Of a stretch of 64,000 bases of DNA, positions 63,108-64,000 are shown in pieces (position 1 is the stretch's first letter; every line of letters starts with the position of its first letter). The stretch covers positions 124,001 through 188,000 of the forward strand of contig NZ_QPIE01000006.1 in NCBI RefSeq assembly GCF_003336205.1, read 5' to 3'. The notes under the pieces were generated by a model that saw only the letters and a list, made by a program, of their open reading frames with translations, was not told the DNA's origin and made no database searches. A program made the translations under genes and the position numbers. This stretch comes from Chryseobacterium lacus. GTDB taxonomy: Bacteria; Bacteroidota; Bacteroidia; Flavobacteriales; Weeksellaceae.

Positions 63108-63144
63108 AAAAAAGAATCTTCCGGTGTTTCACAACAGCGGAAGA
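63108..63144 (-). terminator. Terminator of the 65-aa lipopeptide gene
   Basis: Stem TCTTCCG/CGGAAGA (63117-63144) with a 14-nt loop and a T-rich run on the minus strand (plus A-rich 63108-63116), 45 bp past the stop. Confidence 0.7.
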
Positions 63145-63189: not shown

Positions 63190-63387
63190 TTATTTTCTTG
63201 GTGGAGGAAGTGGATCGCCTGGTAAAATACTTAAATCTCTACCTTGTGCAGAATCCCGAGCCATTGCTGAGTTTTCCATTACTTCCAGATTTGCAGTATC
63301 CTCAGGGCTAATCATATCGTCATGCGTTCTACAAGATACAGTTCCTAATAAGGTAAGTACACATGCTGTTATAATAAGTTTTTTCAT
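63190..63387 (-). CDS. Small lipoprotein/lipopeptide (65 aa)
   Basis: It begins MKKLIITACVLTLLGTVSCR, a lipobox with Cys 19, leaving a mature part of about 47 residues: acidic first (MISPEDTANLEVMENSAMAR) and then SILPGDPLPPPRK at the C-terminus, rich in proline and ending in basic residues. No domain is recognised; the form (lipidated, short, Pro-rich end) recurs in Weeksellaceae genomes as far as I recall. It has its own promoter (TTTG-N21-TACATTTG) and terminator, and is divergent from a signal-peptide-bearing regulator candidate. Confidence 0.8.
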   Translation of the reverse strand: MKKLIITACVLTLLGTVSCRTHDDMISPEDTANLEVMENSAMARDSAQGRDLSILPGDPLPPPRK

Positions 63388-63432
63388 AATAATTATTTTT
63401 AGTTGGTTTAAATTCTGTTGTTATTACTGAGG

Positions 63433-63465
63433 CAAATGTAGGAGCATTTGGCTATACCAATCAAA
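63433..63465 (-). promoter_or_regulatory. Promoter of the lipopeptide gene (-33 TTTG, -7 TACATTTG)
   Basis: Exact -7 match at 63433-63440 and TTTG at 63462-63465, with 21 bp between them, close to the Bacteroidota consensus. It is the best-formed promoter in the window; leader about 40 nt. Confidence 0.7.
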
Positions 63466-63601
63466 TATTCGCACCGGTGGTTTATAAAAAATAACAGGGA
63501 AATTAGCAATTTGGGGGAAGGTTTTTTAGAAAAAATAGGCGTAAATTCGCAAAAGCTGTGTTCAGAAACCGGTAAAAAATAAAAATAAAGAACTTAAATA
63601 A

Positions 63602-64000
63602 ATGATTTTCAGGAAATTAATCTTATCCCTGCTGTTAGCACTCCCCTGTTATCTTTTATACGGTCAAAATAATTATTCTAAAGAATTGACCTACGAACAA
63701 ATTGAAAAAAAAATAGATCAATCCCATGACAATGATGCTGAGATCTGGAAAATGATCCGGATTTACATTGCAAAAGCCAAGGCGGAAAAAAATCCAGAAG
63801 CACTTTTATTCGCTTATAGATATGCTACTGCTTTTTCAAAATCTCCTGAAAACTTAAAATATGCTGACAGCGCGCTTGTTATTGGAAAGAGTTCCAATGA
63901 TAAAAGGCTTCTCGCCAATGCTTATCTTAACCGAGGTATTGTTTTTATGACTAATGTCAAGTATGAAAAAGCTTTGGCGGATATTCTCATTTCTCACAAT
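63602..64000 (+). CDS. Probable TPR-containing membrane regulator (AraC-type), N-terminal part only
   Basis: The frame runs from ATG 63602 to the window edge (133 codons) and is therefore 3' truncated. It has a signal peptide (MIFRKLILSLLLALPCYLLYGQ) and a helical region with TPR-like periodicity (NPEALLFAYRYATAFSKSPE, NDKRLLANAYLNRGIVFMTN). In Flavobacteriia this N-terminus usually precedes more TPR repeats, a membrane helix and an AraC-type HTH, but that part is outside the window. It is divergent from the 65-aa lipopeptide gene, 214 bp apart. Confidence 0.7.
   Translation, partial: MIFRKLILSLLLALPCYLLYGQNNYSKELTYEQIEKKIDQSHDNDAEIWKMIRIYIAKAKAEKNPEALLFAYRYATAFSKSPENLKYADSALVIGKSSNDKRLLANAYLNRGIVFMTNVKYEKALADILISHN

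Follow-up and report, generated by a model that had tools for sequence, protein, structure and literature searches.

The window analysed here is a stretch of 64,000 nucleotides from Chryseobacterium lacus, and its right-hand end holds two divergently oriented genes, one for a tiny lipopeptide and one for a regulator that continues beyond the window edge. The following features were located in this region:

63117 to 63144, minus strand: terminator-like hairpin 3' of the lipopeptide gene (fold MFE -13.7 kcal/mol, z -2.67)
63190 to 63387, minus strand: gene for a lipopeptide of 65 aa (ORF with a sister-species orthologue, kept in all of the closest orthologous loci)
63433 to 63440, minus strand: -7 element of the lipopeptide promoter, TACATTTG, retained in the aligned intergenic regions of 29 orthologues
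63462 to 63465, minus strand: -33 element TTTG of the same promoter, conserved across orthologues
63466 to 63507, no strand assigned: two tandem operator-like half-sites with a 21-bp period, abutting the -33 box (from lag-21 autocorrelation)
63602 to 64000, plus strand: 5' part of the TPR-TM-AraC regulator gene (from the extended ORF, Pfam and hydropathy), which runs on to L001:4420 outside the window

The lipopeptide consists of a signal peptide (residues 1-18) with the lipobox GTVSC and a mature part of 47 residues, CRTHDDMISPEDTANLEVMENSAMARDSAQGRDLSILPGDPLPPPRK, which begins with the acidic start CRTHDD and ends in the proline-rich C-tail PGDPLPPPRK. Because a sister species of the genus carries an orthologue of 67 aa that is 78% identical and in frame, we regard this short ORF as a real gene. 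The flanking genes on either side of the pair match between the two species as well, and the sequence of the hairpin recurs in the sister locus (L008). Downstream of the hairpin lies an unrelated dehydrogenase gene. Pfam contains zero families matching the lipopeptide and NCBIfam gave sub-threshold matches only. A generic terminator and sigma-70 scan, whose models do not cover Bacteroidota promoters, listed neither the hairpin nor any lipopeptide promoter; the -7 element is of the Bacteroidota type, judged by the Bacteroidota consensus. The first-pass annotation had described a short lipoprotein with a lipobox and with its own promoter and terminator, and the ORF, its orthologue, the conserved promoter elements and the hairpin fold together confirm that description.

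When the ORF is extended beyond the window edge, the right-hand gene encodes a protein of 605 aa. Its start, a signal peptide followed by TPR-like helices, had been read as that of a TPR-AraC membrane regulator; the extended ORF has both, and past position 64,000 it also carries the expected membrane helix and C-terminal AraC HTH. The HTH_18 domain at residues 511-591 scores 45.2 bits against a Pfam cut-off of 33.6, and TPR_2 reaches 27.8 bits, barely over its cut-off. Hydropathy gives hydrophobic segments at 1-19 and at 380-398, the latter being the transmembrane segment, and predicts an exported TPR domain, a single membrane helix and a cytoplasmic AraC HTH. The same layout is widespread: exactly one internal hydrophobic segment, usually ~190 residues from the C-terminus, and no other except the N-terminal one, was found in 121 of 123 TPR-AraC proteins. 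Among the PDB matches of the TPR profile is RapJ (4gyo, E 1.3e-5), the Rap matches being weak, and the HTH profile matched ToxT, MarA and YesN. RapJ is a peptide-regulated TPR protein. A phmmer search of the PDB with the single regulator protein returned zero matches, and an AlphaFold model of the TPR-AraC protein of the sister species (L008), made with no alignment, was too poor for fold searches (pLDDT 47). The window's own genome contains exactly one such regulator.

The lipopeptide gene nearly always lies beside such a regulator gene. We searched the regulator over 320 genomes of the family and inspected the 30 best loci. A divergent lipoprotein of 64-86 aa was present in 30/30 of these closest orthologous loci, with a start-to-start gap of 168-252 bp (mostly ~185). 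Inherited pdhA synteny alone is ruled out as the cause, as at L018 and L034 the outer neighbour is a gene other than pdhA and the pairing is still present, and distant paralogues have other neighbours. The next 40 loci, picked via the regulator search alone, hold 41 regulator genes that are mostly 27-37% identical; 28 of them have an intact lipopeptide and 3 more a degenerate one (Cys lost at L079 and L097, broken at L082), the remainder having no lipopeptide, or a nearby 66-aa membrane peptide or GG-type peptide. Searching the family from the other side, with a profile built from 29 orthologous lipopeptides (A2), we found that 31 of 32 inspected weak matches (E in the 1e-9 to 1e-4 range) adjoin a TPR-AraC gene. 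The match at L120 is unrelated, a 166-aa lipoprotein without a TPR-AraC neighbour. An automated rule, a short divergent lipoprotein within 450 bp, picked out 104 of 140 TPR-AraC genes and 2 of 188 other genes; since those 140 take in lipopeptide-selected and repeated loci, the unbiased figures are 30/30, 28/41 plus 3, and 31/32. The linkage between lipopeptide homologues and TPR-HTH genes that had been anticipated thus lies far above chance. An exhaustive count in seven genomes gave 22 full-length TPR-AraC genes, of which 17 have a lipopeptide and another 2 a GG-type peptide. As some TPR-AraC genes stand without a lipopeptide (L075, L088, L196, L188 and L206) or beside a GG-type or 66-aa membrane peptide, the lipopeptide partner is not obligatory for the fold.

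Within the lipopeptide family the mature start CRQxD(D/E) is near-universal: among 92 sequences R stands at +2 in 96%, Q at +3 in 57%, and D/E at +5 in 85% and at +6 in 74%. The middle region is variable. PP occurs inside the last 20 residues of 87/92, and two main kinds of tail can be distinguished, PP-(P)-K/R-K at the extreme end and a DPPxKDGxxW-like form, with PPPKK, DPPVKDGxxW and NPPKNGTHW as examples of the diversified proline-rich tail. The DPPxKDGxxW-like motif occurs 2-3 times in five of the 92. One genome (G096) has five pairs with five distinct tails. We also noted repeated tail units (e.g. TNPPKNGTHYK) divergent to the TPR-AraC gene at L100, L106, L107, L110, L127 and L137, an arrangement that resembles a multi-copy peptide precursor. 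At L139:2227-3348 there are three tandem lipopeptide-like genes, two of them without the lipobox Cys (SFRE for SCRE). At L130-L135, 2-3 tandem TPR-AraC genes share one divergent lipopeptide, and several of these genomes have a second short lipopeptide after the first.

How closely the lipopeptide follows its neighbour was assessed by rank-correlated distances in the 92 pairs (Mantel-type). Tail and TPR domain correlate with r=0.64, the partial value given the HTH being 0.38, as against 0.13 for tail and HTH given the TPR domain. The N-mature segment (0.11 with TPR vs 0.14 with HTH) and the signal peptide (0.06 vs 0.14) have no TPR preference. All of these values are inflated by shared ancestry, for which a Mantel-type correlation corrects incompletely. 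In these sequence comparisons the lipopeptide tail is the only segment whose distances follow those of the TPR domain once the HTH is accounted for, and it is the contrast among segments within one gene that is informative.

Further evidence comes from the shared intergenic region. The orthologues retain TTTG-N19-21-TAcaTTTG on the lipopeptide strand, and across 30 of them self-similarity peaks at lag 21 bp, a value reached by 0/5000 column permutations. Lags of 21 and 22 are in excess (z about 9) in 42 non-redundant paralogue intergenic regions too, for example in the repeat ATTTTTTATGAAAATACC / ATTTTTTATGATAATACC at L070. In the window the proximal half-site reads TATAAACCACCGGTGCGAATA on the minus strand, and the distal half is weak. 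The half-sites of AraC-family activators classically lie next to the -35 region with a spacing of 21 bp. Because the candidate half-sites stand at the -33 box with this same spacing, the regulator likely activates the lipopeptide promoter. The earlier suggestion that the peptide is a partner of the regulator gains support from these AraC-spaced repeats upstream of the lipopeptide promoter and from the apparent coevolution of tail and TPR domain.

We therefore favour, with a probability of about 0.6, the reading that the pair forms one envelope module, in which the TPR-AraC protein, a one-component regulator, drives expression of its cognate lipopeptide and the tail of the latter binds the periplasmic TPR domain. 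A helix across the inner membrane would connect the exported, periplasmic TPR domain to a cytoplasmic AraC HTH. The regulator would bind the pair of tandem half-sites, spaced by 21 bp, that adjoins the -33 box of the divergent promoter on its upstream side; it would thereby control the lipopeptide gene and, in many paralogues, also the operon that this gene heads. Once exported and lipidated, the lipopeptide would present its diversified proline-rich tail, tethered or released, to the TPR domain of the cognate regulator, and recognition of the tail would feed back on transcription. Two findings count against such an interaction. Several TPR-AraC genes have no lipopeptide beside them, and the CRQxD(D/E) start resembles surface-export signals; a surface-facing tail is out of reach of a periplasmic TPR domain unless it is released or exported late. 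If the acidic start were a functional surface-export signal, versions in which the tail is released, or in which the lipopeptide reports on export, would be favoured.

In the first of these versions the tail is cut off and serves as a diffusible or vesicle-borne intercellular pheromone that periplasmic TPR domains detect. In some precursors the tail unit is present 2-3 times, like in multi-copy pheromone precursors, the tails are clade-specific, some paralogous pairs adjoin radical-SAM peptide clusters, and in another clade a GG-type peptide is the partner. However, the tail is single in most lipopeptides and often C-terminal, the repeats could simply add avidity, and no dedicated protease or transporter is conserved next to the pair. 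We consider a released signal rather unlikely.

NlpE and RcsF act as export sentinels for CpxA and Rcs, and the lipopeptide might likewise be a decoy carried by the lipoprotein or surface-export route: upon failed export its tail would touch the TPR domain near the inner membrane and the regulator would respond. In many paralogous loci the operon encodes outer-membrane proteins or secreted peptides, and the CRQxD(D/E) start resembles the Capnocytophaga surface-export signals C-X-K-(D/E)2 and Q-A-(D/E)2 (PMC5080379). Surface-exposed lipoproteins (LES) are marked by an acidic pair that follows a basic or polar residue near the Cys. Yet the reported optimum is C-X-K-(D/E)2 (PMC5080379), and the acidic pair of the lipopeptides at +5/+6 is off that position. 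Moreover, a general monitor would need no tail diversity, whereas one genome holds five pairs with five different tails. We regard a sentinel role as improbable.

The lipopeptide might also be a mere regulated output, an envelope lipoprotein under a TPR-AraC protein that senses something else. The divergent neighbour of an AraC gene is often under its control, and the operator-like repeats do lie at the lipopeptide promoter, but this reading leaves unexplained both why the correspondence with the TPR domain that goes beyond the HTH is confined to the tail and absent from the signal peptide and the N-mature part, and why the lipopeptide stays constant while the downstream genes vary; we give it little credence. 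Finally, a chance neighbour or spurious small ORF, which the shortness of the frame and the absence of a matching database family might suggest, is refuted by the 30/30 orthologues and the 2/188 controls.

The proposed module of lipopeptide and membrane regulator has likenesses to several known systems. RRNPP systems are defined by a small exported propeptide (10-100 aa) adjacent to its receptor, a cytosolic receptor of 250-500 aa with peptide-binding TPRs, and re-import of the peptide (PMC10075063). As in Rap, NprR, PlcR, PrgX and Rgg, a small exported propeptide gene with a diversified peptide end adjoins a TPR regulator, and the window lipopeptide, with 65 aa, a lipoprotein signal and an adjacent, divergent gene, falls within the propeptide definition. 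RRNPP receptors are cytosolic, whereas the 605-aa receptor of the window has a signal peptide, a TM helix and a C-terminal AraC HTH and is predicted to be membrane-bound with its TPRs outside the cytoplasm; further differences are that the peptide is a lipoprotein, that the hosts are Gram-negative Bacteroidota and that the genes are divergent. The predicted topology argues against re-import of the peptide and binding in the cytoplasm. The likeness to RRNPP-type sensing, across the envelope, that the first-pass annotation had drawn stands only as an analogy, and the pair may work in a similar way, but membership fails on receptor length, predicted location and topology, and HTH type. NlpE-CpxA, RcsF-Rcs and ToxR/ToxS-type systems share an envelope lipoprotein or small partner that signals to an inner-membrane regulator; they differ from the window system, which joins the TPR sensor and the AraC HTH in one chain and has a dedicated divergent lipopeptide with a diversified tail for each regulator. 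With AraC/XylS proteins (AraC, ToxT, MarA, YesN) the regulator shares the HTH_18 domain and putative tandem direct half-sites ~21 bp apart by the target promoter, although it is membrane-anchored and carries a TPR sensor instead of a cupin or receiver. Two families of short lipoproteins were rejected. DAG-RiPPs, or Dyb lipidated RiPPs (ChrH-type), are likewise short Bacteroidota peptides on the lipoprotein pathway, but they end in CPxCGxG and need an MNIO enzyme (PMC12636315), whereas none of the 92 lipopeptides carries CPxCGxG and no modifying enzyme adjoins the window pair. The PG1828 family lipoprotein (NF050142) has a similar short lipoprotein signal and start and weakly matches 24 of 29 orthologous lipopeptides, but the window protein reaches 17.8 bits against a cut-off of 50 and its tail lies outside the match.

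In paralogous loci the lipopeptide often heads an operon whose remaining genes vary. At L077, L098 and L105 it is followed by a small GG-type precursor peptide and a radical SAM/SPASM maturase (uncharacterised peptide clusters), and at L080, L084 and L148 the operon includes outer-membrane barrels. Other operons contain MauE, a 58-aa CPxSG protein and a DUF6520 protein, the MauE gene being found at 17 loci. A small protein CPxSGxWE...MPxYCGKKVxWKL, without a Pfam or NCBIfam match, recurs beside MauE (L096, L114, L121, L125, L128 and others). The lipopeptide is replaced by a divergent GG-type peptide of 56-63 aa at L102, L108, L193 and L218, with a prolyl-oligopeptidase-like gene after it at L102, L108 and L218, and in the TPR-AraC clade of L089, L090, L092 and L094 the divergent neighbour is a 66-aa membrane peptide (MKNKL...). 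At L007:7518-8902 (plus strand) a secreted peptidase-like gene is split into two overlapping ORFs, possibly by a frameshift or assembly error.

At this level of similarity, regulators were found in Weeksellaceae-like genomes and, within a second family, in Flavobacterium-like ones. In the latter the divergent partner is usually a lipoprotein of 229-246 aa with a conserved (R)KDxDW stretch, which is perhaps related to the KDxxW tails; such lipoproteins, with no Pfam match, were seen at L159-L163, L165-L167, L172-L174 and L207-L210. In view of these longer partners, the combination of a TPR-AraC gene and a divergent lipoprotein may predate the form with a short lipopeptide.

In conclusion, a tiny lipopeptide nearly always stands back-to-back with a membrane-spanning regulator in Chryseobacterium-like bacteria, and the divergence of its variable tail goes along with that of the TPR domain, a domain of peptide-binding type; together this suggests an undescribed family of envelope signalling pairs. 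We found no account of the lipopeptide/TPR-AraC pair in the literature searched, in which subscription journals were scarce, and to our knowledge few peptide-sensing systems are known in Bacteroidota. More tentatively, it might be possible that the pairs constitute a Gram-negative peptide-signalling code, in which each TPR-AraC protein reads the tail of its own lipopeptide across the envelope and the duplicated pairs of one genome, with their differing tails, are orthogonal channels for the induction of peptide-antibiotic, outer-membrane and redox operons. If indeed the tail is the ligand, Bacteroidota would possess a widespread family of regulators that respond to peptides; one genome could hold several separate pairs, and the ligand of each regulator could be predicted from the neighbouring gene. 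The cognate pairs, diversified in their tails, would lend themselves directly to use as orthogonal sensors, and as several pairs head radical-SAM peptide clusters, they could guide the switching on of silent peptide natural products in Chryseobacterium.
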